Positions 2,723-25,922 of a stretch of DNA of 51,794 nucleotides are shown in pieces (the first letter of the stretch is position 1; every line of letters starts with the position of its first letter). The notes under the pieces were generated by a model. That model did not search any database, was not told where the DNA came from, and was given only the letters and a program-made list of their open reading frames with translations. Both the position numbers and the translations under genes were made by a program. The stretch covers positions 1 to 51,794 of the forward strand of contig CANEFX010000019.1 in assembly GCA_947426945.1 (NCBI GenBank), given 5' to 3'. This DNA is from an uncultured Bacillota bacterium (GTDB lineage Bacteria > Bacillota > Clostridia > Oscillospirales > Oscillospiraceae).

Positions 2723-3520
2723 TCACAGGTCGTCGTCTTCCAGCGGGTCGTAGTCGTCCGCCGGGGCAGGTCCGTCGGCAGCGGCGGCGCCCTTTTTAAA
2801 CTTCACGCTGTTCAGGATCAGGGCCAGGATACAGGCAAAGATAGCGATGGCAGTGATGTCCAGGCCCAGATAGACCACCAGGAAGAAACCCAGGAAGAAG
2901 TAGATGGTCAGGTCCCGGGTAAGCATAACGGACAGCAGCAGCGCAAGACCGTAAGCGGTAAGGAACTTGGTGGCCAGATTCAGGCCGGCGGTGAGCCAGG
3001 CAGGGATCACGTTCACAATGGCTTCCACCGCGTCGGTGCCGATGTAAATCGCCAGGAAGATGGGAACAAAATAGAGCAGCGCGTAGATAATCGTACCCCA
3101 GACGATGTGCATGCTGTATGCCTTTTTGAAGTTGCCCTGCTCAATGGCCCGGTCAGCCACGTGAGTCAGAGTACCCAAAACAGTCCGGCCGATGACGCCG
3201 ATGAACTGACCCAGCACAGCAATAGGCATGGCGATGGCCAGGGCGGTCTCAATGGTGGCGCTGGTGGTGATGGCGAAAGCGGATGTAATGATAGCGGCCA
3301 TATTCATGTCGGGAGGCACCGCGCCGCCGATGTTTACCAGGCCCATGCTGATCAGCTCCATGGACGCGCCCACCGCAAGTCCGGTTTTCAGATCGCCCAG
3401 CGCCAGGCCCACCAGCGTACAGGTGATAAGGGGGCGCTCGAAGTTCAGCCGGCCCAGCAGCCGGGAGTCCATAATGCAGAACACGCCGATAAGACCCAGC
3501 ACAATGGATTGCACTAACAT
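2723..3520 (-). CDS. PTS mannose/fructose/sorbose-family EIIC component
   Basis: This 265-residue polytopic membrane protein carries the EIIC-Man signature: an N-terminal helix (SIVLGLIGVFCIMDSRLLG), the motif RPLITCTLVGLALGDLKTGL and ASMELISMGLVNIGGAVPPD. It ends in an acidic cytoplasmic tail (YDPLEDDDL). ATG 3520 is preferred because AAGGAGAGGAAATAAAC precedes it. An upstream in-frame ATG at 3592 would add 24 arginine- and glutamate-rich residues not expected in the family. It transports the sugar phosphorylated by EIIB. Sugar specificity cannot be read from EIIC alone; the downstream SIS gene suggests an Amadori or amino sugar. Confidence 0.93.
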   Translation of the reverse strand: MLVQSIVLGLIGVFCIMDSRLLGRLNFERPLITCTLVGLALGDLKTGLAVGASMELISMGLVNIGGAVPPDMNMAAIITSAFAITTSATIETALAIAMPIAVLGQFIGVIGRTVLGTLTHVADRAIEQGNFKKAYSMHIVWGTIIYALLYFVPIFLAIYIGTDAVEAIVNVIPAWLTAGLNLATKFLTAYGLALLLSVMLTRDLTIYFFLGFFLVVYLGLDITAIAIFACILALILNSVKFKKGAAAADGPAPADDYDPLEDDDL

Positions 3521-3607
3521 GTTTATTTCCTCTCCTTTTTCTTGTTTTTCCGCCAATTCCGCACCCCGCTCCCGGCGGGGGCGGGCAGTCAAAGGGGCGC
3601 GGAGCCT

Positions 3608-4075
3608 TTACACGCGGATAAGATTTTCCCGTTTGTGTCCGGGGGTCTGCTGCATGTAGATCTTCACGCCCAGGTCCAGCAGCTTCTGGGTGTCCGCCTG
3701 TTCCTCCGCATTGAGGAACACCGCCCCGGCATACTGCCTGGAGTTCTCCTTGTTGGCAATTCCGCCGTAGTTGACCTCCCTGCACTTGGGATAGGCCTCA
3801 CAAAATTGGCGCAGGGTAGCGGTGTTGCCAAAGATCATCATGATATTTTCGTTCAAGGTCTCCACCTTGGGCATTTTTTCCAGGGTCTTGGCCAGAGTAA
3901 AGATGTTTAGCCGGACGCCGGCGGGCTTGCTCAGATTCAGCGCGGTCTTTTTCAACTCGTCGTTGGCCGCCTCGTCGTCCACAACGATAATGCGCTGGGC
4001 CCCCACGTTCTGGGTCCAGGAGAACACCACCTGTCCATGGAGCAGACGGTAGTCCAGTCTTACCAGCTTGATCAT
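3608..4075 (-). CDS. PTS mannose/fructose/sorbose-family EIIB component
   Basis: This 155-residue cytosolic phosphotransfer protein carries phosphate on His13 in the motif RLDYRLLHGQV, the canonical EIIB-Man active site near the N terminus. The remainder (IIVVDDEAAND, VNYGGIANKE) follows the EIIB-Man/Sor fold, and the length is normal for the family. It starts at ATG 4075 behind GAGGAGGATGACCT and overlaps the EIIA stop by 4 bp (ATGA), which implies translational coupling. It passes phosphate from EIIA to the sugar carried by EIIC/EIID. Confidence 0.93.
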   Translation of the reverse strand: MIKLVRLDYRLLHGQVVFSWTQNVGAQRIIVVDDEAANDELKKTALNLSKPAGVRLNIFTLAKTLEKMPKVETLNENIMMIFGNTATLRQFCEAYPKCREVNYGGIANKENSRQYAGAVFLNAEEQADTQKLLDLGVKIYMQQTPGHKRENLIRV

Positions 4076-4509
4076 AGGTCATCCTCCTCATCTGTGTTGC
4101 TGTTCATAGCCTCTCTCAGCTGCTGGGTGCAGTCCAGCAGCTGTCCCTGGGCCTGGCCCAGGATATCATTCAGCTCCTCCCGGGTCAGCGGTTCCTCCGC
4201 ATCCGCGATACTCAGCACCAGGCAGGCGTTCATGCCGCAGATCACCGTGATATCCGGGTATTTGGCCACCAGGGAGAGCATGTCGTTATTGACGCTGCCG
4301 TTGAGTACATCCGTCAGGATGTAGACGGCATCCCCGGCCGGGAAGCTGTCCAGCAGGCGGCCGGTCTTCTGCGCAATGCTCTCCGTCTCATCCCGGGTGG
4401 TGGCCACAGCGCAGACATTGGGCAGGTCGCCCATGATCATCTGCACGGTGTCCAGCATACCTGCCGAAAGACCTCCGTGGGACGCTAATATGACTCTGTT
4501 CATGTGCAT
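4072..4509 (-). CDS. PTS mannose-family EIIA component
   Basis: This 145-residue EIIA has the phospho-acceptor histidine in VILASHGGLSAGM (His11 from the chosen start), an ILTDVLNGSVNND segment and an INDILGQAQ-like C-terminal helix. ATG 4509 is chosen because AAAGGAATCGGTG precedes it; ATG 4503 is a close alternative. An open frame continues upstream to 4719 but runs across the promoter and is not coding. The gene is first in the PTS transcript. The 4509-4636 leader carries the likely operator. Confidence 0.92.
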   Translation of the reverse strand: MHMNRVILASHGGLSAGMLDTVQMIMGDLPNVCAVATTRDETESIAQKTGRLLDSFPAGDAVYILTDVLNGSVNNDMLSLVAKYPDITVICGMNACLVLSIADAEEPLTREELNDILGQAQGQLLDCTQQLREAMNSNTDEEDDL

Positions 4510-4615
4510 CACCGATTCCTTTCCGTTTCCTTTATTTTCAGCGTGAGGCCACGCTTGAATACCTGCTGCCGTCCTTTTGGTATCCCACATTTCCCTTGTC
4601 GTCTCTGTCGTCATA

Positions 4616-4634
4616 AACGTTATAATCGTTATAT
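4616..4634. promoter_or_regulatory. Probable GntR operator at the PTS operon start site
   Basis: AACGTTATAATCGTT (4616-4630) is close to an inverted repeat (AACG-N7-CGTT). It also contains CGTTATA twice, 9 bp apart (4618 and 4627). It sits immediately downstream of the -10 element, over the expected start site. TCGTTATAT (4626-4634) recurs at 5744-5752 in the leader of the adjacent GntR gene, as expected for an autoregulating repressor. Binding itself is inferred. Confidence 0.55.
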
Positions 4635-4636
4635 AC

Positions 4637-4664
4637 ATAATAGCGCATTTTTTAAGTCTGTCAA
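4637..4664 (-). promoter_or_regulatory. Sigma-A promoter of the PTS/SIS/HAD operon
   Basis: On the minus strand TTGACA (4664-4659) is followed after 16 bp by TATTAT (4642-4637). The -35 box is perfect and the -10 near-perfect. Transcription would begin near 4630, about 120 bases before EIIA. Confidence 0.8.
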
Positions 4665-4780
4665 GAGATTTTCTTAAAAAAACGCGATTCTGTATAAATG
4701 CATAATTTTCAAGCGCCACTTTTGTGAAAATCTGCCAGTATTCAAACCTTATCTAAAAAATGACGGCCTGCTCCGGACAT

Positions 4781-4820
4781 AAAAACCCGCTGGACTACCG
4801 GCCCGGTAATCCAGCGGGTT
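4781..4820 (-). terminator. Terminator of the GntR gene
   Basis: An 18-bp stem with a single mismatch (4784-4801 with 4803-4820, AACCCGCTGGA at its base) is followed on the minus strand by TTTTT at 4785-4781. It separates the GntR transcript from the PTS promoter. The remaining non-coding sequence from 4821 to 4996 shows no gene. Confidence 0.85.
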
Positions 4821-4996
4821 CTGCGTATTTCATTAAGGAACCACTGAATAAATCGCCGCACATATCTTCACACCATAAGTTCCCGCTGAACTGCGTCAGA
4901 AAAACTTGAAATCCGTCAGGATTCCTGCGTTTTTCTTCCTTGTCAGCGGAAAATTTCTGGTGCAAATCTGCACACGTTGATTTAATCAGCGCTTCC

Positions 4997-5719
4997 TTAA
5001 ATCTCAAACATATAGCGGCTGCCAATATAGTACTGCCGGCCGATACAGTTAGGCCGCCCCCCCTCGTCCAGAAAATAGACGTTGAGGAACAGCATAGGTT
5101 CCCCCAGCGGGATCGCCAGCTGCTGGGCCTGCTCCGGAGACGCCCTGGTGATCTCCACCGTCCGGTGGTCAATGTCAGCCGGCCTGTGGCCGGACACCTG
5201 GCCGATGGCCTCAAACATGGAGGTGTTGTTCAGGTCCATAGACATCAGGGCCTTGTACTCCTCATAGGGCAGAAAGAGGTTTTCCATAAAGATGGGCTGA
5301 CCATCCGCCGTACGCACCCGTTCCACATAGAGGAGCAGCGCGTCCGCTTTCAGGCCGAAGAACTCCTGTTCATCCCGGCGGGAAGGGACTATCCGACAGT
5401 CCACTACCCGGGCTCCCGGTGTAAGTCCCAGCTTGTAGCAGGTCTGGGAAAAGCCCTCTACCTTATTGCCCCCGGTAAACTTCCGGTTAATGCGGGGGGT
5501 ATTTACAAAGGTCCCCCTGCCCTGCATCTTGGTCAGATACCCTTCGCTGCAAAGCTCCTCCACCGCCCGGCGGACCGTGATCCTGCTGACAGAATACTCC
5601 TCACTCAGTGCCGGCTCCGGGGGAATCTTCTCCTTTGGCTGATATTTTCCGCTCTGAATCGCAGCCTTGATGTCCTCTTTAATCTGCTGATACAGGGGAA
5701 CACTTACCATCTCAGCCAT
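4997..5719 (-). CDS. GntR-family (HutC/FrlR-type) regulator with UTRA domain
   Basis: This 240-residue regulator has an N-terminal winged helix-turn-helix (residues about 5-72: PLYQQIKEDIKAAIQSG, SEEYSVSRITVRRAVEEL, GYLTKMQGRGTFV). A C-terminal UTRA ligand-binding domain follows (about 95-235, ending IGRQYYIGSRYMFEI). It starts at ATG 5719, 8 bases after AGGAGG. It lies just upstream of, and in the same direction as, the mannose-family PTS operon, with its own promoter and terminator. UTRA regulators typically sense a sugar phosphate or a related metabolite, so it probably represses the PTS operon until the phosphorylated substrate appears. A shared word at both promoters supports this and suggests autoregulation. 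Confidence 0.9.
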   Translation of the reverse strand: MAEMVSVPLYQQIKEDIKAAIQSGKYQPKEKIPPEPALSEEYSVSRITVRRAVEELCSEGYLTKMQGRGTFVNTPRINRKFTGGNKVEGFSQTCYKLGLTPGARVVDCRIVPSRRDEQEFFGLKADALLLYVERVRTADGQPIFMENLFLPYEEYKALMSMDLNNTSMFEAIGQVSGHRPADIDHRTVEITRASPEQAQQLAIPLGEPMLFLNVYFLDEGGRPNCIGRQYYIGSRYMFEI

Positions 5720-5869: not shown

Positions 5870-6742
5870 TCACATCTCCAGCGCAGCCAAAACCCGGCCG
5901 ATGTCACCGTCTATGCAGATCGACCGGGATCGAAGCTCCTGCGGACAAAAGGCCTGGCCAAAATTGACGCAGACATAGACAGATTCGGGGTTTTGGGCAG
6001 TCATTTTCCAGAAGGGGTATTTGATGATGCCCGGGGTGTTGTTCCCCACGCCCAGCTCCAGAAAGACCACCCGCATCCCCTCATGCCGCCGGAGAAAATC
6101 CCGATACCGCCCTCTGGCCTGATACCAGCCTTTATCCTGGACAAAAGCGTCATCTGAGCGCAGGTTCATGGCTACAGGCCCGCCGCAGACAGGACAGCGG
6201 GGCACCAGCCCCGAGGGCACCCGCATGTCCCGCTGTTCCGTAAACATCCGGCGCACAGCGGCCTCATTATCATAAGTCTCCTGGTGGCAGGGCCGGGCGC
6301 ACTGCCACAGCCCGTAATCCCCTTGCGTGTAAAACAGCCGCTTCTTGTCAAATCCCGCCAGCTGAAACTGGTGATCCACATTGGTAGTCAGCACAAAATA
6401 GTCTCTGCCCTCCACCAATTTCAGCAGGTCGTCATAGACCGGCCCGGGAGCGCGCTGATAGCGGTTCACCATGATATGGCGGCTCCACCACGCCCAGTAT
6501 TCCTCCAGAGACGGGAAGGGGTAGAAGCCCCCGGAGTACATGTCCTGAATGCCGTATTTTTCTTTAAAATCTCTGAAATGCTCTTCAAAACGCGCTCCGG
6601 CGTAGGTCAGCCCCGCCGAGGCGGAAAGCCCCGCTCCCGCACCGATCACCACGGCGTCAGCGCGATCCAGCGCCTGCCTCAGCCCCTTGATCTTCGCCGA
6701 GTATGCGGCGGTATATTGCTCTGTCGATATCCTTAAAGACAT
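5870..6742 (-). CDS. SirTM-class sirtuin, probable protein ADP-ribosyltransferase
   Basis: This 290-residue Sir2-fold protein has the NAD loop VVIGAGAGLSASAGL (31-45), TTNVDHQFQLAG (119-130) and a zinc site (Cys148, Cys152, Cys183, Cys186). The catalytic histidine of deacetylase sirtuins is replaced by Gln140 in YTQGDYG. Asn121, Gln140 and Arg195 (MNLRSDDAFVQD) match the residues I recall for the SirTM ADP-ribosyltransferases (Asn118, Gln137 and Arg192 in the streptococcal enzyme). It is therefore predicted to attach ADP-ribose to a protein rather than deacetylate. The ATG at 6742 has AAAGGTG upstream and lies 86 bp inside the macrodomain gene in another frame. SirTM is normally paired with a macrodomain and a lipoylated GcvH-like target; the macrodomain is present but no GcvH-like gene is in the window. 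Confidence 0.88.
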   Translation of the reverse strand: MSLRISTEQYTAAYSAKIKGLRQALDRADAVVIGAGAGLSASAGLTYAGARFEEHFRDFKEKYGIQDMYSGGFYPFPSLEEYWAWWSRHIMVNRYQRAPGPVYDDLLKLVEGRDYFVLTTNVDHQFQLAGFDKKRLFYTQGDYGLWQCARPCHQETYDNEAAVRRMFTEQRDMRVPSGLVPRCPVCGGPVAMNLRSDDAFVQDKGWYQARGRYRDFLRRHEGMRVVFLELGVGNNTPGIIKYPFWKMTAQNPESVYVCVNFGQAFCPQELRSRSICIDGDIGRVLAALEM

Positions 6743-7478
6743 TAAAAATCACCTTTCTGACACACATCTCCTGCCGGAAAAAGTCTGTAACTGTTTTCAC
6801 GGCAATTTCGGCGGCCTCCTGGTTGGGAAAGTGAAATTCCCCGGTAGAGATACAGCAGAAGGCCACGCTCTCCAATCCGTGCTCCGCCGCCAATGTCAGA
6901 CAGGCACGGTAGCAGGACGCCAGTTCCTCTCTGTCCCGCGCGGTAACGCCTCCCCGGACGATGGGGCCGACGGTGTGGAGGACATACTTGGCCGGAAGAT
7001 TATACCCCTTGGTCAGTTTTGCCCTGCCGTTGGGCTCCGGGCGGCCCTGGACCTGCATCATCTGATTGCACTCGTCCCGAAGCTGGAGACCCGCCGCCGA
7101 GTGGATGGCATTGTCAATGCAGCCGTGGCAGGGGTGGAAGCAGCCCAGCAGGGCGGAGTTGGCGGCGTTGACAATGGCGTCCACCCTCAGCCGTGTGATG
7201 TCCCCTTTCCAAACGGTGATCTTCGGATGGCCGCTGACAGCGGGCAGAGCCGCCCCGTCCACAATACCTTTATTCTCCCGCTCGGCGGACAAAAGATTAT
7301 CCTGTATCGCCAGAAAATCATCCTGTAGCGGCATAGGCGGGCGGACATTCATCAGGCTGCGGAGCAGCCGCCGCTGACTGGCTTCGTCCTGCGGAAATTC
7401 CCGCGCCTGGGGTTGGTATTCGGGCATTTCTGCCAGCAGAATTTCATTCAAGGTGCGAATTGCGGTCAGATGTTCCAT
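6657..7478 (-). CDS. Zinc-dependent macrodomain protein, ADP-ribosyl hydrolase
   Basis: This 273-residue protein has an N-terminal helical extension (1-85) and a macrodomain: ITVWKGDITRLRVDAIVNAANSALLGC, HTVGPIVRGG and FCCISTGEFHFPNQEAAEIA. The segment CFHPCHGC (113-120) holds the Cys/His cluster of the zinc-containing macrodomains linked to SirTM sirtuins, which remove ADP-ribose from the sirtuin's target. ATG 7478 is chosen because AGGAGG is 7 bases upstream; a frame starting at 7532 would read through the hairpin at 7499-7528. It overlaps the sirtuin gene by 86 bp. The pair forms a writer/eraser cassette. Confidence 0.9.
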   Translation of the reverse strand: MEHLTAIRTLNEILLAEMPEYQPQAREFPQDEASQRRLLRSLMNVRPPMPLQDDFLAIQDNLLSAERENKGIVDGAALPAVSGHPKITVWKGDITRLRVDAIVNAANSALLGCFHPCHGCIDNAIHSAAGLQLRDECNQMMQVQGRPEPNGRAKLTKGYNLPAKYVLHTVGPIVRGGVTARDREELASCYRACLTLAAEHGLESVAFCCISTGEFHFPNQEAAEIAVKTVTDFFRQEMCVRKVIFNVFKDIDRAIYRRILGEDQGAEAGAGSR

Positions 7479-7498
7479 TTTAATTCCTCCTACGGCAA

Positions 7499-7528
7499 GC
7501 CTCCCTCCGGACTGTGCCGGAGGGAGGC
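7499..7528. repeat. 12-bp hairpin between MBL-like and macrodomain genes
   Basis: GCCTCCCTCCGG (7499-7510) pairs perfectly with CCGGAGGGAGGC (7517-7528). No T-run follows in either direction, so it may be a processing or stability element inside the operon rather than a strong terminator. Confidence 0.5.
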
Positions 7529-7534
7529 GCAAAA

Positions 7535-8326
7535 TCAGCTGAAGAAAAATCCGGCGGTCATATCCAGGTAATTTTCCCCGCTGTAGGCCGGATACCGCGC
7601 TTGGACCGCGGCCTTGAAGGACGCTCTGTCGCCACAGGAGGAAGCGATGGACTTCAGCTCCTCCAGGTAGAGAATCTTAGTCTCCGCATCTTTCAGATCC
7701 TCCGGGGTGTAGTGGGAGGTGAGAATCAGGTCATAGCCGTTCCGGATATAACCCCGCAGCTGGGCGATCATGGCGTCGGCGTGACCGGACCCGGCCACGA
7801 TGGAGTGGCAGTCATGTCCCAGCATGTGAGTGTAGACCGCGTTAATCTCGGGAATCTCCACGTCAAAAGCCTCCGCCGTCTGATGGATGACGAACCGAAT
7901 ACCGCCAATGGTGACCTCCCCCTCGGAAAGGGTGTGGGTAATAGGATGGATGGAGCCGTCAAAGTCACTGCCAAAGGCTGTAGTAAACTGGTCGATCAGG
8001 GCCTTGCCGCCTCCCTGACGGGTGTACTCCTCGGCGTTGGCGGTGGCGTACTTGGGAGCGTCCGGCAGGAAGGAGCCGCCTGCGCCGTGATAGGCCACCA
8101 GCACGCCGGCTGCCTCCCGACCCGCCAGATACTCGTTCAGCGCGGCCACGCTGGCGGTGAAGCATGGAGACTCAATAGCTACGAACCTCCCCGCCTTTTC
8201 CACCAGAAATACCTCATCCGCCAGCGGGTCGCCGGTCTGATAGGCGTGGAGCTTCACGCCGCCGAAATCATAGACATGCATTTCGCCTTGGGCCAGCCGG
8301 ACAGTGGTAAAATTTTTCTTGTTCAT
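7535..8326 (-). CDS. Metallo-beta-lactamase-fold-like protein with degenerate metal site
   Basis: This 263-residue protein follows the general order of an MBL fold: an N-terminal beta part (VHVYDFGG-like, GDPLADEVFLVEKAGRFVAIESPCF), VAYHGAGGSFLPDAP where HxHxDH would be expected, then YTHMLGHDCHSIVAGSG and an ILTSHYTP segment near 215. The canonical HxHxDH motif is absent, so ordinary two-metal hydrolase activity is doubtful; a few His/Asp residues could still hold one metal. The assignment rests on overall pattern and is moderate. It starts at ATG 8326 behind GGAGGTACTCATA. It is first in the macrodomain/SirTM operon and divergent from an HxlR regulator, with paired operators between them. 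It might process the metabolite that triggers the system or be the modified target. No signal peptide is visible. Confidence 0.6.
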   Translation of the reverse strand: MNKKNFTTVRLAQGEMHVYDFGGVKLHAYQTGDPLADEVFLVEKAGRFVAIESPCFTASVAALNEYLAGREAAGVLVAYHGAGGSFLPDAPKYATANAEEYTRQGGGKALIDQFTTAFGSDFDGSIHPITHTLSEGEVTIGGIRFVIHQTAEAFDVEIPEINAVYTHMLGHDCHSIVAGSGHADAMIAQLRGYIRNGYDLILTSHYTPEDLKDAETKILYLEELKSIASSCGDRASFKAAVQARYPAYSGENYLDMTAGFFFS

Positions 8327-8385
8327 TATGAGTACCTCCGTTGAAGTGTTTTTACAGCGGGAATGTCTCCCGTCACTGTGTCTGC

Positions 8386-8414
8386 ATCATACATCAGCAG
8401 AGGTCACTTGAAAA
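8386..8414 (-). promoter_or_regulatory. Possible promoter of the MBL-macrodomain-SirTM operon
   Basis: Minus-strand TTTTCA (8414-8409), 17-bp spacer, TATGAT (8391-8386). The weak -35 would fit a promoter that needs an activator bound at the adjacent repeats 8437-8477. Confidence 0.4.
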
Positions 8415-8436
8415 GTACGCACAATTTTGTGGTATA

Positions 8437-8477
8437 GTTACCAGAATGTAACGATTGGACCGTTACCAAAAGGAAAC
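8437..8477. promoter_or_regulatory. Tandem HxlR-type operators
   Basis: GTTACCAGAATGTAAC (8437-8452) and GTTACCAAAAGGAAAC (8462-8477) are two 16-bp inverted repeats (GTTAC-N6-G[TA]AAC) spaced 25 bp start to start. They lie between the divergent HxlR and MBL-like genes, just upstream of the weak -35 of the latter. This geometry suits a dimeric winged-helix activator bound at two sites. Confidence 0.6.
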
Positions 8478-8537
8478 GATTGTGTGATTTCAAAGGGTTT
8501 CGGCTTTTTGGCGGGAGGAAAAAAATTTTTTTGCGCC

Positions 8538-8567
8538 TTGACCCCGGCAGGGAAGATACGGTAAAAT
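8538..8567 (+). promoter_or_regulatory. Promoter of the HxlR gene
   Basis: TTGACC (8538-8543), 18-bp spacer, TAAAAT (8562-8567), giving a start near 8574 and a leader of about 40 bases before the GTG start codon. Confidence 0.6.
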
Positions 8568-8613
8568 TGGGCTGTACAGCATTTTAGAAACTAATAGACA
8601 GGAGGATACAACC

Positions 8614-8931
8614 GTGGAGACCAAAACTTTGCCCGCCTGCCCGGTGGAAACCACACTGACGCTCATCAGCGACAAATGGAAGGTACTCATTATTCGGGAT
8701 CTGCTGCCGGGAACAAAGCGCTTCGGAGAATTGAAAAAATCCATCGGCGGCGTAAGCCAAAAAGTGCTGACCGCCCAACTCCGGCAGATGGAGGAGAGCG
8801 GTCTGCTGACAAGGAAGGTTTACCCGGAAGTACCGCCGCGGGTGGAATACACCTTAACGCAGCTGGGCTGCAGCCTGAAGCCGGTTTTAGACGCCATGCA
8901 GGCCTGGGGCGAAGCATACCGAAACGGCTGA
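8614..8931 (+). CDS. HxlR-family (DUF24) winged-helix regulator
   Basis: This 105-residue protein matches the HxlR family throughout: CPVETTLTLISDKWKVLIIRDL, then GTKRFGELKKSIGGVSQKVLTAQLRQMEESGLLTRKVYPEVPP read as recognition helix plus wing, and VEYTLTQLGCSLKPVLDAM. Cys10 occupies the usual N-terminal position of the redox- or electrophile-sensing cysteine in several family members (the YodB/HypR type). The start is GTG 8614, 8 bases after AGGAGG. It is divergent from the MBL/macrodomain/SirTM operon and the likely regulator of it through the two repeats at 8437-8477. A second cysteine is present in the C-terminal half. Confidence 0.9.
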   Translation: METKTLPACPVETTLTLISDKWKVLIIRDLLPGTKRFGELKKSIGGVSQKVLTAQLRQMEESGLLTRKVYPEVPPRVEYTLTQLGCSLKPVLDAMQAWGEAYRNG

Positions 8932-8962: not shown

Positions 8963-11935
8963 TCAGCTATAAAATTTGTTGGTGTTCAGCAGCTTTTCCT
9001 TTTGAACTGAGGTAATTGTATCCGTGATGTCCTTGATAAACACATAAAACAGACGGTGCTCCTCGCCCCACTTGGAGTTTTCCAGATGTCCGTAGTCATC
9101 CACCCAGCGGATCTCGCCGTCCCGGCGGATAATCCGGTAGCGGACGTAATCCATATTGCTTTCGGAATTGCGGATCTGATGCTGAATGGCCCACTCGACT
9201 CTGGCCAAGTCCTCCGGATGGACCATACCCCGGAAGGAGTACTGGACCAGCTCCATCAGCTCGGTCATGGTCTCACAGCCGAAGATTTCCATTACCGCCG
9301 GGTTGGCGTACAGGATCCGTTCGTCCTCTATGGCACGGTAAATAAAGAAAGCGTCGGACATATTGGCCAGGGATTCCGCCATGCGCTCCTGCTGCCGTTC
9401 CTCCTCTTCCCGCATGATCTTTTCAATGCTCTGAACAGTGATGACGGCAGTTTTCGGCTTTTCGTTCTCCCGCTCGCTGATAGTCACGCTGGTCAAACAC
9501 CACTCGTCCGGACATTCCCTGCTGCTCCGGCGGTAGCGATAATCCACCGAGTTCTGGGTCTCCAAAGCGCTGCGCAGATGTTCCAGGGACAGGAATTTCC
9601 GGATATTCTGCTCGTCGTACTTCAAGATCCTGCCGGTACCGAAGTGGCGCTCCACCATAGCCGCATAGTTGCCCCGCTCCGTCACGCTGGCCTGGTCCGG
9701 ATAGATCATCCGGCAGTAGTTGTCCTGGAGATGGAGGTAGTAGACCTCCCGGTAAGCCAGCACCATGCTGTTGAAAGCGCCCTCATAAAGCTGCCTGTGA
9801 GTCACGTCCCGCAGCAGGCACGCGGCGTAGCCGTAATCATATTGGAACAGCGTCATCTGAAGATAGTGTCCGGATACGAAGCTGTAGGCAAAATGCTCCA
9901 ACGTCTCCCCCAGAAAGGCAGCCTGGTACGCCTTTCGCAGCAGGCGGCGGGAGTCGTCCTTGAACGCTTTGAGAATCAGGCTGCGGATATAGTTGAAGTC
10001 GCTACCGCACATCCGCTCCATTTCCCGGTTGATGTATACGATCTCATAGTCGATCGGTTCCCCCAGCTTATCCAGCACGATCCTGGACAGGCCAAACCCG
10101 CAGGGCAGCATCCCATAATACTGCTCCAGACGGTGCTGTTCCTCACCGTCCAGCTTTGCCGCGGGCGCCTCCGCCAGCGCGACGGCCTGCCGCTGTTCCC
10201 GAAGGGCGGTGATATCCTCTGTGCTGACAAAATAGATCCGGTGTCCCTCCTTCTCCCGGAGGAAAAACACCTTGACGTGGAGCCAGAGCACCCTTTCATC
10301 CACCCGCAGATAGTGGATGTTCCCCTCCGCGCCGGCCGGCCGCTCGTCAAACGCCCGCTCGAACAGGGACAGCAGCACAGGCCGATCGTCGTCCCGGACG
10401 TTGTCCCAGACCTTGCGGCTCATATCCTTGTTGTCCGACACATCCAGGCCGGCCATCTGGTAATACTGCTCGTTGACCCGGGTAATCTCCATCTTCTGCT
10501 CAAACACGTCGTAGATGGCGGCGGGCCCCAGAACATGGTTAATCATCGTATCGGTAAACAGGTTCCCGTCTATGAGCTCCCGCATGTGAAAACCTTCCAC
10601 CTGCTTGCAGTGCAGGCCGGTGAAGTCCAGCCGCCGCTCATCTGCCAGAATGGACTCAAACTGGTCGATGGGCAGGGGGCGGTAATAATAGTAGCCCTGG
10701 GTGTACCGGCAGCCCATGCTGCGCAAAATACTCTCCTGCTGGGGCGTCTCCACTCCCTCCACGATAATGGGCAGACTCAGCAGCCGCGCCATGTTGACGA
10801 TGGACTCCAGGATACCGATGCCCTTCTGCTCGTTCTCCTCCGTAATTTCCAGAAAACGCATGTCGATCTTCAGCACGTCCACGGGGATGCTCTTCAGCAT
10901 GTTCAGAGAGGAGTAGCCGCTGCCGAAATCATCCATCATGACCAGAAATCCGGCCTGCCGCAGGCGTTCGACCGTATCGTTGATGGAGGAGTCCTCCTGG
11001 GTGTAGGCGCTTTCGGTAATTTCCGCCTTGATATATTTGACTGGCAGATCATATTTTTCCAGCAGCTGCTTCAAATAAGCGGGCACATCCATAGCCATGA
11101 TGTCGATGCGGGAGATGTTGATGGAGATGGGCACCGGCTCATAGCCCCTGTCGATCCAGCTGCGCAGCCAGCGGCACACCTTCTCCCAAACCTGCTGGTC
11201 CAGCAGATAGACCGCGCCGCAGCGCTCCAGGGCAGGGATAAATTTTCCAGGGGGAATCAGGCCCTCAGTCCTGTGCCTCCAGCGCACCAGAGACTCCGCA
11301 CCCACCACCTTGCCGGAGGTAATATCACACTGGGGCTGGGCAAAAAAGGTGAATTCGTCCCGCGTCAGTGCGCCGGTGACCTCTGACAGCAGGTTTATCT
11401 CCTCTTCCAGGTTCTCCTCCATTTCAGGACGGTAGCAGACAATCGGCCTGTGGGCGGTGGACTGCTTCAGGGCGAGGGCGGCTCGGTCATAATAAATATC
11501 CGGGGAAAGCCGCAAATCGTCGATGGGGCTGACGCCGAACACAGGAATGACGCCGATGGCCTCTCCGGCCTGAAAGATATCCTTCGATATCCTGTCCCGC
11601 AGCTGCTCCACCAATTCCATCCGCCAGGGCATGACAATGCAGAAGTCATCCCGCTGAAGATACCCGGTCACACCACCGTGTTCCCCGCGCATGGCCTCAA
11701 GATGGCCTGCAATCTGCCGCAGAAGGCGGTCGCCCGCGTCCCTTCCGTAAAGCTTGTTGAACATCCGGAAGTGCAGGATGTCGATGGCAACGATACAATA
11801 AACGTTGTGTTCGGCCTGAGCAATGAACCGCCCCGCTTCCTCCATAAAATCCTGCGGGAAAAGCAGCCCTGTGAGCGCGCTTTTTCTCAAGTCCTCCCGG
11901 CCATGGGACCCGGCTACTGTTCTTTCCTTTTCCAC
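8963..11935 (-). CDS. c-di-GMP phosphodiesterase: degenerate GGDEF, EAL, C-terminal PAS domains
   Basis: This 990-residue protein has an N-terminal GGDEF-like domain (about 40-150) whose active loop reads YLQRDDF, so cyclase activity is unlikely. An EAL domain follows (about 190-440) with AESLVRW, SINISR, AEITES, DDFGSGYSSLN, LKIDMRF, VEGVET and QGYYYYRP. The metal and catalytic acidic residues are retained, so it should hydrolyse c-di-GMP. PAS or PAS-like domains follow near 455-575, 610-720 and 855-980; the last has a clear PAC tail (RRDGEIRWVDDYG). Sensors at the C terminus are the reverse of the commoner order. There are no membrane helices, so it is cytosolic. The start is GTG 11935 behind GGGGGG; the nearby ATG is out of frame. 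It is monocistronic with its own promoter. Confidence 0.9.
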   Translation of the reverse strand: MEKERTVAGSHGREDLRKSALTGLLFPQDFMEEAGRFIAQAEHNVYCIVAIDILHFRMFNKLYGRDAGDRLLRQIAGHLEAMRGEHGGVTGYLQRDDFCIVMPWRMELVEQLRDRISKDIFQAGEAIGVIPVFGVSPIDDLRLSPDIYYDRAALALKQSTAHRPIVCYRPEMEENLEEEINLLSEVTGALTRDEFTFFAQPQCDITSGKVVGAESLVRWRHRTEGLIPPGKFIPALERCGAVYLLDQQVWEKVCRWLRSWIDRGYEPVPISINISRIDIMAMDVPAYLKQLLEKYDLPVKYIKAEITESAYTQEDSSINDTVERLRQAGFLVMMDDFGSGYSSLNMLKSIPVDVLKIDMRFLEITEENEQKGIGILESIVNMARLLSLPIIVEGVETPQQESILRSMGCRYTQGYYYYRPLPIDQFESILADERRLDFTGLHCKQVEGFHMRELIDGNLFTDTMINHVLGPAAIYDVFEQKMEITRVNEQYYQMAGLDVSDNKDMSRKVWDNVRDDDRPVLLSLFERAFDERPAGAEGNIHYLRVDERVLWLHVKVFFLREKEGHRIYFVSTEDITALREQRQAVALAEAPAAKLDGEEQHRLEQYYGMLPCGFGLSRIVLDKLGEPIDYEIVYINREMERMCGSDFNYIRSLILKAFKDDSRRLLRKAYQAAFLGETLEHFAYSFVSGHYLQMTLFQYDYGYAACLLRDVTHRQLYEGAFNSMVLAYREVYYLHLQDNYCRMIYPDQASVTERGNYAAMVERHFGTGRILKYDEQNIRKFLSLEHLRSALETQNSVDYRYRRSSRECPDEWCLTSVTISERENEKPKTAVITVQSIEKIMREEEERQQERMAESLANMSDAFFIYRAIEDERILYANPAVMEIFGCETMTELMELVQYSFRGMVHPEDLARVEWAIQHQIRNSESNMDYVRYRIIRRDGEIRWVDDYGHLENSKWGEEHRLFYVFIKDITDTITSVQKEKLLNTNKFYS

Positions 11936-24212: not shown

Positions 24213-25922
24213 TCAGAAACCTCCCCGTCCGCCGCCTGGACCTCCGGATGGCATCCCGCCGCCGGGCATGCTCCCGCCCATGCCGCCCGGAACTCCGCCC
24301 GGCATCATCATCTCAAAGCCGCCAGAGCCGGTGGTGGGGATATAAGCCACCGTGTCCCCCTTCTGGAGGCCGGAGACGATCTGGATGTAATTGCTGTCGC
24401 TTGCCCCAATTTCCACCGGGACGGAGTAGTACACCTCCTCGCCGCTCTCCACCGGCGCCCCGCCGGCAGCGCTGGGGGAATCGGCGGTAACCAGAACGGT
24501 GTTCCCCCGGTTCAGCGCCCCTGAGGGAACGGCCAGCACATCGCTGGCGCTCTCCAGGGTGATAGCGGCGTCCACGTTCATACCGGGGAGAAGGCCCTCC
24601 GTCTCGTCGATGCGGACGGTGACCGGATAGGTGGTGGTCCCTCCGGAGGAGGTCCCCGCCACGCTCACCTTGGTGACTACGCCGGTGTAGGTCCTGCCCT
24701 CCACCGCGTCGGCGGTGACGCTCACCTCCTGGCCCACGGCAATGTCGGAGATGTCCAGCTCGTCCACGCTGAGGGTCATGGTAAGATAACTCAAATCGTA
24801 GATGGAGCACAGCACCCGGCCCGCCTCACTGGTCTCGCCGGCCTTGTAGTTCTTGTCGATGACCGTCCCCCGGATGGGGGAGGTAATGGTGTAGTTGTCC
24901 AGCTGATCGTACCGGCTTTCCAGGGACAACTCCGCGTTGCGCAGAGAGTCGGCGGCGCTCCGGACGCTGTCCTCCACGCTGTCGCTGGTCAGGGTGAGGA
25001 TGAGGTCTCCCCTGTTTACCCAGTCCCCCTCCTCGGCCCGGATGGAGTCAACCCGGCCGGAGACCTCCGATGTAATGTTTTCTTCCGCCGCGTATGTAAA
25101 GGCGGCGCTCCCGATGCTGGCACAGCCGTCTACCGCCGCCGAGCCGGTCTGATTGACAGACAGCGCCCCGGGGTTGGAGACCTCAACGGCCACATAGCGG
25201 ACGATCATATTGCCCTCCAGCACCGTGTCCATCCGGTCAATTGCAGAGACGGTCCCCTCCAGCGTCTCAAAGGTGTCCTCCAAGGTAACGGCAGCGCTCT
25301 GGCCTATATAGAACCCTGCCGCTTCGTCGGAGAGGAAGGGGACCTCCAGGGTCATTATGTCCGAGTTTCTCAGGATGGCAATCAACTGCCCTGCGGACAC
25401 CTGGTCCCCTGCTTCCATCTCCAGAGAGAGAATCCGCCCCGCTTTCGGGGCGGCGACCGACAGCTTCTCCAGATCCTTCAGTCGGCTGCTGTAGCTGCGC
25501 TGAGCCTGCTCCAGGGAGATCTGAGCCTGCTCCAGGGTGCTGGACAGGTCGGAGGCGTCGATAGTATACAACACCGTCCCTTCCTCCACCTGGTCCCCCT
25601 CTTCAAAGTCGGCGGTGAGAATGCTCCCCTCCGCCAGTGAGGTGACTGAGTAGGAGTTGGCCGCCTCCAGAGAGCCGCTGCCGGTAATCTGGGCGGTGAT
25701 GTCCCGCCGCTCCACGGCGGCGGTAGTATAGGTCAGATCGACGGCAGAAGCAGTCTGTCCGCCCCCCAGAAAACGCAGTGCCAGCGTCCCGGCCAGCAAA
25801 CAGGCCAGGACCGAAAAAACCACCTTTTTCCCAAGCAGCTTTTTTCCCGGAGCACCGGCCCTTGTCCCGATTTCTGCTTTCTCTCGCGCCGGTTCCTTTT
25901 TTTTCAACACAGGGAGCTTCAT
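24213..25922 (-). CDS. MacA/HlyD-like efflux adaptor protein
   Basis: This 569-residue adaptor has a lysine-rich cytoplasmic N terminus, one membrane helix (VVFSVLACLLAGTLALRFL, about 40-58), a split lipoyl/biotinyl-type domain (about 75-140 and 260-330), helical hairpins (TLEQAQISLEQAQRSY), a beta-barrel (TMTLSVDELDISDIAVGQEVSVTAD) and a membrane-proximal domain. The last about 30 residues form a Gly/Pro/Met tail (GGMGGSMPGGGMPSGGPGG), unusual and probably disordered. ATG 25922 follows AAAGGACGATTTCGGTT. A longer open frame to 26021 lacks a ribosome site and crosses the regulatory repeats. It couples the ABC pump to substrate in the wall space. Three phased repeats upstream suggest control by the adjacent response regulator. 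Confidence 0.88.
   Translation of the reverse strand: MKLPVLKKKEPAREKAEIGTRAGAPGKKLLGKKVVFSVLACLLAGTLALRFLGGGQTASAVDLTYTTAAVERRDITAQITGSGSLEAANSYSVTSLAEGSILTADFEEGDQVEEGTVLYTIDASDLSSTLEQAQISLEQAQRSYSSRLKDLEKLSVAAPKAGRILSLEMEAGDQVSAGQLIAILRNSDIMTLEVPFLSDEAAGFYIGQSAAVTLEDTFETLEGTVSAIDRMDTVLEGNMIVRYVAVEVSNPGALSVNQTGSAAVDGCASIGSAAFTYAAEENITSEVSGRVDSIRAEEGDWVNRGDLILTLTSDSVEDSVRSAADSLRNAELSLESRYDQLDNYTITSPIRGTVIDKNYKAGETSEAGRVLCSIYDLSYLTMTLSVDELDISDIAVGQEVSVTADAVEGRTYTGVVTKVSVAGTSSGGTTTYPVTVRIDETEGLLPGMNVDAAITLESASDVLAVPSGALNRGNTVLVTADSPSAAGGAPVESGEEVYYSVPVEIGASDSNYIQIVSGLQKGDTVAYIPTTGSGGFEMMMPGGVPGGMGGSMPGGGMPSGGPGGGRGGF

Follow-up and report, generated by a model that had tools for sequence, protein, structure and literature searches.

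The stretch analyzed here comprises positions 1 to 51,794 of contig CANEFX010000019.1 from an uncultured Oscillospiraceae bacterium of the phylum Bacillota (assembly GCA_947426945.1) and is referred to as the window. Between positions 5870 and 8931, it carries four genes. Three are located on the minus strand and encode, in the order of transcription, a protein with a metallo-beta-lactamase (MBL) fold, a zinc macrodomain (Zn-macrodomain) and a class M sirtuin (SirTM); the fourth is divergently oriented on the plus strand and encodes a regulator of the HxlR family (Table 1). A sequence resembling a ribosome-binding site (RBS) was found ahead of each of the four genes. All of them lie where a preliminary description of this DNA had placed them, and the signature residues of SirTM and the Zn-macrodomain were read directly.

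Table 1. Genes and regulatory sites of the SirTM cassette; positions refer to the window.
Feature	Position	Strand	Basis
SirTM, class M (macrodomain-linked) sirtuin, predicted protein mono-ADP-ribosyltransferase	5870..6742	-	residues, motif, PDB 5a3a match, RBS-like AAAGGTG
Zn-macrodomain, predicted protein-ADP-ribose hydrolase	6657..7478	-	NF003163, PDB 8rsi match, Zn motif; 86-nucleotide overlap with SirTM
MBL-fold protein, tight family without Pfam or NCBIfam model	7535..8326	-	without HxHxDH; invariant C55, H80, H127, H167, H171, C173, H174, H205
HxlR/DUF24-family regulator, N-terminal Cys9 in CPV context	8614..8931	+	PF01638, E 3.9e-34; C9 corresponds to C14 of HypR/YybR
Conserved operator core GGTAACTATACCACAAAATTGTGCGTACTTTTC, overlapping the -35 element of the MBL promoter	8410..8442	-	55 of 62 HxlR-MBL upstream regions
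Inverted repeat GTAACG-n7-CGTTAC, adjoining the operator core on its upstream side	8448..8466		part of the conserved block, kept in alignments
Promoter of the MBL, macrodomain and SirTM genes, TTTTCA-17-TATGAT	8386..8414	-	promoter scan; -35/-10 columns kept in 55 loci
Promoter-like site for HxlR, TTGACC-18-TAAAAT	8538..8567	+	consensus match only

The sirtuin carries N121, Q140 and R195, which in the alignment with SpySirTM (PDB 5a3a; E 2.5e-75) correspond to N118, Q137 and R192. Mutation of these residues sharply lowers the transferase activity of SpySirTM (PMC4518038; statements cited from this paper and from PMC11490716, PMC6943732 and PMC7586716 are taken from excerpts of them). In addition, the cysteines C148/C152/C183/C186 and, at position 231, the motif GVGNNTP are present, the class M motif being GVGx[NT]TP (PMC4518038). 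Pfam gave no match for the sirtuin, and the deacylase models of NCBIfam matched only far below their cut-offs. With Gln in place of the catalytic His, its Asn and Arg partners, the class motif and the linkage to a macrodomain, the protein is predicted to be a class M ADP-ribosyltransferase, its activity being suggested by the family residues.

The Zn-macrodomain likely starts with the ATG at 7478, which is preceded by the RBS AGGAGG, and not with the TTG at 7532. It matched the NCBIfam model 'protein-ADP-ribose hydrolase' (NF003163) with 344 bits at a cut-off of 272, and MorMacro (8rsi; E 2.1e-78) was its closest PDB chain. C113, H118 and C120 form an eight-residue Cys-His-Cys loop that resembles the zinc loop of the Zn-Macro proteins (PMC11490716). 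As a MacroD-type domain with this short loop, it was assigned to the Zn-Macro class and is predicted to bind zinc. The reading frames of the macrodomain and SirTM overlap by 86 nucleotides (6657-6742), the RBS-like AAAGGTG standing ahead of the SirTM ATG, and overlaps of about 50 nucleotides or more were also observed in relatives, e.g., at loci L046, L052 and L060. This overlap of frames, here and in relatives, suggests translational coupling.

GcvH-L is the only known target of SirTM, and the targets of other SirTM/Zn-Macro systems are unknown (PMC11490716). The preliminary description had found neither GcvH-L nor LplA2 in the window and had proposed a variant system with a different substrate. 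In the remainder of the genome, a draft of 2.41 Mb in 52 contigs with 91.7% completeness, GcvH-L and LplA2 were likewise not found: the models for GcvH (PF01597), for the catalytic domain of LplA/LipB (PF21948) and for lipoyl synthase LipA (PF16881) gave no match, while 13, 13 and 9 of 14 control genomes, respectively, were positive. At this completeness and contig number, the absence of a single gene is strongly indicated, not absolute. A lipoyl target elsewhere in the genome was rejected as a candidate on these results, and gcvH-L and lplA2, which belong to the extended SirTM operon, were both missing from the draft. Since neither GcvH nor LplA nor LipA was matched, the only known SirTM target appears to be absent, and the target of SirTM in this organism most likely differs from GcvH-L.

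The same question was addressed in a survey of 245 genomes drawn from the order to which the window belongs. PF01597 matched at E 0.001 or better in 17 of the 48 SirTM-bearing genomes, with a full-length, high-scoring match in only 6 of the 48 as judged from the match rows; the remaining matches, which are partial and weak, possibly stem from related carrier domains. PF01597 was matched in none of the seven genomes in which the cassette is linked to MBL. Biotinyl and lipoyl carrier domains share the fold of GcvH, and a carrier of the biotin carboxyl carrier protein type could replace GcvH-L as the target in a cell that lacks lipoylation. Indeed, the window's genome has six Biotin_lipoyl matches, three of them strong (E below 1e-19), despite the lack of any GcvH, LplA or LipA match. 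However, none of the six lies in the cassette, and one (window 24990-25085) belongs to a membrane-fusion protein of the HlyD type and not to a carrier. A carrier-domain target is considered quite improbable.

The variant system thus stood as a SirTM/Zn-macrodomain pair without GcvH-L; the lack of GcvH-L as such is not new, since SirTM operons that consist of the pair only, as well as SirTM of clostridial families, have already been described (PMC4518038, PMC11490716). MorMacro, which is encoded in the pair-only operon of Methanobrevibacter oralis, could not demodify GcvH-L (PMC11490716). The window shares with this minimal operon (PDB 8rsi-8rsk) the pair and the lack of GcvH-L/LplA; unlike there, the pair is preceded by an MBL-fold gene and by a divergent HxlR gene with a conserved operator. 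With the extended operon of S. aureus and S. pyogenes, it has SirTM and the Zn-macrodomain in common and, judging from relatives, oxidoreductase neighbors and a probable link to oxidative stress. In contrast to that operon, no GcvH-L/LplA2 was found, and the recurrent neighbors in relatives are PNPOx-like, nitroreductase, NAD(P)H-binding and radical-SAM proteins (OYE and LLM were not searched for). The words 'hxlr' and 'lactamase' do not occur in the main texts of PMC4518038 and PMC11490716. In the open full-text literature (subscription papers and preprints being outside this scope), no paper combined HxlR with a macrodomain, and HxlR and a sirtuin were found together only in a T. denticola paper (PMC7586716), in the excerpts of which they appear as separate genes. 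The pair and its GcvH-L-free form are, hence, already known, while the HxlR switch, the operator and the MBL partner are undescribed in the literature searched.

The MBL fold of the third protein became apparent from an AlphaFold2 model and structure comparison. The fold extends over most of the chain, as in the Metallo-beta-lactamase superfamily (Sfh-I/CphA, PqsE, chlorothalonil dehalogenase and the SdsA1/YjcS alkylsulfatases). Unlike that superfamily, the protein has a different set of invariant His and Cys residues, shows only about 8-14% identity in structure alignments and has no Pfam model. At E 0.001, neither Pfam nor NCBIfam matched it, and with Pfam at E up to 10 nothing was obtained for the window protein and four chance-level families among other members. 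Relatives were collected from one genome per species, and the best 80 of 200 confirmed relatives, which lean towards sequences near that of the window, were analyzed as MBL loci. The motif HxHxDH was absent from all 80 locus rows (the window not being among them and the L120 row being cut short) and from the window's own sequence. Since the fold is present and this motif is not, the protein was termed MBL-fold and not canonical metallo-hydrolase. The eight His/Cys residues given in Table 1 were invariant in an alignment of 80 of 81 MBL rows, i.e., 79 loci and the window, with L120 left out. Most likely, the protein would be an enzyme that uses a metal or a thiol and takes part in the same response, in detoxification or repair. 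Thus far unclassified, the family is exposed here as one with a very conserved and unusual His/Cys site.

More distant relatives of the MBL-like protein were sought in 398 genomes of the phylum, which contained five clear members, including that of the window, one weak match (E 5.8e-4) and no intermediates. A search for sequence relatives in the PDB gave no convincing match, the best one (E 0.022) being an unrelated protein, and a plasmid-borne family was discarded after 72,556 plasmid records had yielded no match. A viral structure library gave two MBL-fold-like matches at E below 0.001, which were uninformative for function.

The regulator was assigned to the HxlR/DUF24 family by its PF01638 domain and its conserved N-terminal cysteine. 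Cys9 aligned with the redox cysteine Cys14 of HypR/YybR from B. subtilis, a residue that is Ser in the second YybR entry (4a5n), and the CPV motif was present in 65 of 67 HxlR genes of the MBL loci. The DUF24 regulators HypR, YodB and CatR sense HOCl, quinones and diamide via conserved N-terminal cysteines, and B. subtilis HxlR controls aldehyde detoxification (PMC6943732). The window regulator has PF01638, the cysteine at the C14 position of HypR and predicted redox-enzyme targets in common with HypR, YodB and CatR (MarR/DUF24); it differs from them by a predicted 33-bp operator of its own and by a predicted target set that includes SirTM/macrodomain and the MBL-like protein. The alignment of C9 with C14 makes the switch by electrophile or redox stress that had been proposed for this locus plausible, and sensing of thiol stress or electrophiles by this protein is a fair expectation.

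A single operator-promoter of the form GGTAACTAnnnCACAAnAAAGTGCGTACTTTACA-n17-TATnAT was found between the HxlR and MBL genes. The conserved block contains the inverted repeat GGTAAC/GTTACC, followed by GGTAACTAnnnCACAAnAAAGTGCGTAC, which runs into the -35 element TTTACA, with the -10 element TATnAT 17 nucleotides further on. The site was present within five mismatches in 55 of 62 HxlR-MBL upstream regions, and in these 55, from which the conservation columns were derived, the -35 and -10 elements were conserved. It was also present in all 12 loci in which the HxlR and MBL genes stand without an adjacent SirTM gene (in two of these genomes, SirTM is encoded at another place). With up to three mismatches, the 33-bp pattern matched once in the window's genome. 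A slightly looser pattern matched 27 times, in 23 of the 245 order genomes, compared to no match for the reversed pattern. By coordinate comparison, 19 of the 27 matches (17 genomes) lay within 5 kb of a SirTM gene. As for the other eight, two were followed by a short PNPOx-like gene, in genomes that lack SirTM; in genomes that encode SirTM at another place, one stood ahead of a longer PNPOx-like gene and two ahead of an NAD(P)H-binding gene; one (three mismatches) preceded a flavodoxin-like gene, and two (three mismatches each) had nothing clear behind them. When a weight matrix trained on the MBL loci was applied, 22 of 50 order loci scored above 19 bits, 16 of them without MBL, while the best shuffled control reached -12.9 (one mononucleotide shuffle per locus); some MBL-positive test loci were training contigs, and the non-MBL loci alone are independent. 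Since the operator also stands before redox-enzyme genes and SirTM-free MBL genes, the unit under predicted control is wider than MBL and SirTM. It would be a small regulon that covers redox enzymes and the MBL-like protein and, in some of the species, extends to the SirTM/Zn-macrodomain pair.

In the order survey, the MBL-like protein was found in 8 of the 245 genomes. All eight were also SirTM-positive (hypergeometric 1.3e-6, uncorrected for kinship) and belonged to eight different families; the two genes adjoined in seven of them and lay on different contigs in G037. The surroundings of SirTM were compared at 48 loci, i.e., those of 50 with a recognized SirTM frame (L050, the MBL contig of G037, and L090, with a broken SirTM, were left out; G139 contributed two). 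The layouts of these loci and of the MBL loci were obtained by simple calling of open reading frames and not with a gene finder. Within 5 kb of SirTM, a macrodomain was encoded at 42 loci, HxlR at 22, longer PNPOx-like proteins at 15, MBL-like proteins and short PNPOx-like proteins at 7 each, radical-SAM/SPASM proteins at 5, nitroreductases at 4 and NAD(P)H-binding proteins at 3, the names of the accessory families resting on one or two scanned members each. HxlR genes are rare, with one to six per genome in 12 SirTM genomes chosen for this count and two in the window's own; the cassette HxlR is the sole one in G178, G088, G160 and G227. Judged against this rarity and without a formal null, HxlR at 22 of 48 SirTM loci should be far above chance.

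A family with PNPOx_N was observed at L045 7217-7858(-), L077 7293-8225(-) and L205 1601-2218(+), with PNPOx_N fused to 4Fe-4S ferredoxin domains in the two members scanned. It adjoined SirTM in 15 of the 48 loci and once stood alone behind the same operator. This protein is likely a flavin-ferredoxin redox protein and an alternative candidate for the SirTM target. Radical-SAM/SPASM genes were found beside nitroreductase genes, between HxlR and the macrodomain/SirTM genes, at L052 7138-8169(-), L056 2143-3189(+), L072 1821-2861(+) and L074 8610-9674(-), and a cofactor- or peptide-modifying step might be part of the response.

From the MBL side, synteny was strong and recurrent. The macrodomain and SirTM genes both followed in 56 of the 80 MBL loci and at least one of them in 61, and an HxlR gene with the CPV cysteine motif lay divergently no more than 1 kb away in 61 of 80; among the 76 loci that offered 600 or more nucleotides of upstream sequence, 60 had it. 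The preliminary description had named missing synteny of the MBL gene in relatives and a gcvH-L/lplA2 pair elsewhere in the genome as observations that would speak against it. Neither was encountered: the gene order HxlR/MBL/macrodomain/SirTM recurred, and no such pair was present in the draft genome, PF01597 remaining unmatched genome-wide. The description had further suggested that the MBL-like protein itself is possibly the substrate; on this reading, it would be switched off by ADP-ribosylation through SirTM and on again via the macrodomain. In favor of this, the adjacency in 56 of 80 loci can be cited, as can the fact that the one known substrate, GcvH-L, is also encoded in the operon (PMC4518038). 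Furthermore, distances correlated between macrodomain and MBL (r 0.695) and between SirTM and MBL (r 0.477), above the maximum of 500 shuffles, in 43 loci (of the 57 with SirTM and macrodomain, those with HxlR in addition and with genes of nearly full length). The macrodomain-SirTM correlation (0.554; same loci) likewise exceeded the maximum of 500 shuffles. However, correlated divergence is expected of neighbors that are inherited together.

The loci in which the MBL gene is separated from the pair argued against the MBL-like protein as substrate. In 19 of the 80 MBL loci, neither macrodomain nor SirTM followed, 15 of these having at least 2.5 kb of downstream sequence. When 15 genomes with a separated MBL gene were searched throughout for SirTM, 13 had none, and in 10 of the 13 the MBL gene keeps the divergent HxlR and the operator. 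Thus, the MBL-like protein is kept, together with HxlR, without SirTM. Conversely, only 7 of the 48 SirTM loci of the order have MBL. Moreover, 17 acidic columns were conserved in 58 SirTM-linked MBL sequences, 16 of which were kept in 12 of 12 SirTM-free sequences and one in 11 of 12 (12 of 13 SirTM-free loci, L120 being left out). The acidic residues are, therefore, independent of SirTM and give no sign of an acceptor site kept for it. Three non-acidic columns (G22, G142 and I147), which were at least 95% conserved in SirTM-linked and less than 85% in SirTM-free sequences, were given no weight. As an obligate SirTM substrate, the MBL-like protein found no support in the 15 separated-MBL genomes and the 58 linked versus 12 SirTM-free sequences, and the proposed role as substrate is unlikely. 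It is more likely that the ADP-ribosylated target is a cell protein common to these cassettes.

Taken together, we consider it reasonably likely that a lipoyl-free SirTM/Zn-macrodomain pair has here become part of a thiol-stress cassette under HxlR control. In such a cassette, thiol-reactive stress, i.e., an electrophile, quinone, disulfide, hypohalous acid or aldehyde, would modify Cys9 of HxlR. HxlR would then act, as repressor or activator, at the 33-bp site observed to overlap the -35 element. The MBL-like protein, the macrodomain and SirTM would be made together, as gene order, spacing and overlap suggest for an operon. SirTM would use NAD+ to mono-ADP-ribosylate a protein other than GcvH-L, and the Zn-macrodomain would remove the mark, both activities being predicted from family residues. 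In relatives, PNPOx-like flavin proteins, nitroreductase, NAD(P)H-binding or radical-SAM proteins accompany the MBL-like protein or stand in its place.

Several observations weigh against an HxlR-controlled thiol-stress cassette. Its working, including expression, binding and enzyme activity, is predicted from sequence, and the draft status of the genome (91.7% complete) weakens claims that rest on the absence of single genes. The HxlR-SirTM distance correlation (0.326) did not rise above the shuffles (maximum 0.349). No divergent HxlR was located within 1 kb in 19 of the 80 MBL loci, and 26 of the 48 SirTM loci, some on short contigs, had no HxlR within 5 kb; 28 of 50 loci scored below 0 bits for the operator. 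HxlR control is, therefore, not universal for SirTM. The operator form was lacking at the HxlR-bearing SirTM loci L053, L056, L064, L069, L072, L083 and L089, and the MBL-bearing cassette L082 lacks both HxlR and the operator. B. subtilis HxlR itself responds to formaldehyde (PMC6943732), so that the family does not settle the class of signal. Finally, a SirTM tree of 97 rows (rows under 240 amino acids left out; long branches; 35 of 94 forks open) required 20 changes of the MBL label, at least six of them forced by well-supported branches. Thus, the link to MBL was gained or lost repeatedly. These changes, together with the conserved acidic columns, agree better with a modular cassette than with a fixed pair of enzyme and substrate.

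The frequent label changes are also compatible with mere co-regulation, which overlaps with the HxlR-controlled cassette and in which SirTM/macrodomain and the MBL-like protein would share one stress promoter and serve unrelated pathways. The occurrence of the operator before genes of flavin and NAD(P)H enzymes at sites distant from SirTM and the separability of MBL from SirTM point in the same direction. Against this, the same few families recur with SirTM, and the clustering of the MBL label on the tree exceeded that in all of 500 shuffles, with near-copies contributing. Co-regulation without a functional connection is quite possible, short of probable. A further-reaching version of the HxlR-controlled cassette is put forward tentatively, as it is rather doubtful: in gut Clostridia, the HxlR thiol switch and its operator would define a lipoyl-free regulon in which SirTM and the Zn-macrodomain reversibly control a non-lipoyl protein whose gene belongs to this regulon, either the MBL-fold enzyme, with a new type of active site, or the PNPOx-like/ferredoxin flavoprotein. 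If true, SirTM would thereby have its first target other than GcvH-L. A genome with the pair and no match to GcvH, LplA or LipA, together with a likely regulator, its operator and a short list of recurrent co-regulated proteins, makes the open question of the SirTM target testable.

Some bacterial SIR2 proteins are defence NADases, and an anti-phage system with an NAD-consuming sirtuin could be imagined. Three phage-collection records contained a SirTM-like sequence, one of them over 92% of the query at 41% identity. PADLOC, in contrast, gave no match at E 0.01 for SirTM, the macrodomain or the MBL-like protein and a weak one to Csa3 for HxlR (E 0.0027), and a defence system was discarded as a candidate. 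The partner hydrolase and the stress operator fit reversible signalling better, and an anti-phage role is highly improbable.

Among the open reading frames of the window, those flanking the cassette were scanned. On one side, downstream of the cassette (window 2723-5719), genes of a sorbose/mannose-type phosphotransferase system (IIC, IIB) and a GntR-UTRA regulator were found, which look unrelated. On the other side, HxlR is followed by a gene for a 990-amino-acid GGDEF-EAL-PAS protein of the ordinary cyclic-di-GMP type (window 8963-11935(-)). In three order loci, SirTM is followed by a gene of one family, to which a DUF5131 protein (L064) belongs, i.e., at L051 1753-2466(+), L056 6860-7777(+) and L064 6532-7404(+). 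At L083 4261-7020 and L086 5236-7046, at least two distant SirTM-like proteins are encoded in tandem, without a recognized macrodomain and beside an Rrf2-type regulator; they represent a divergent SirTM branch.

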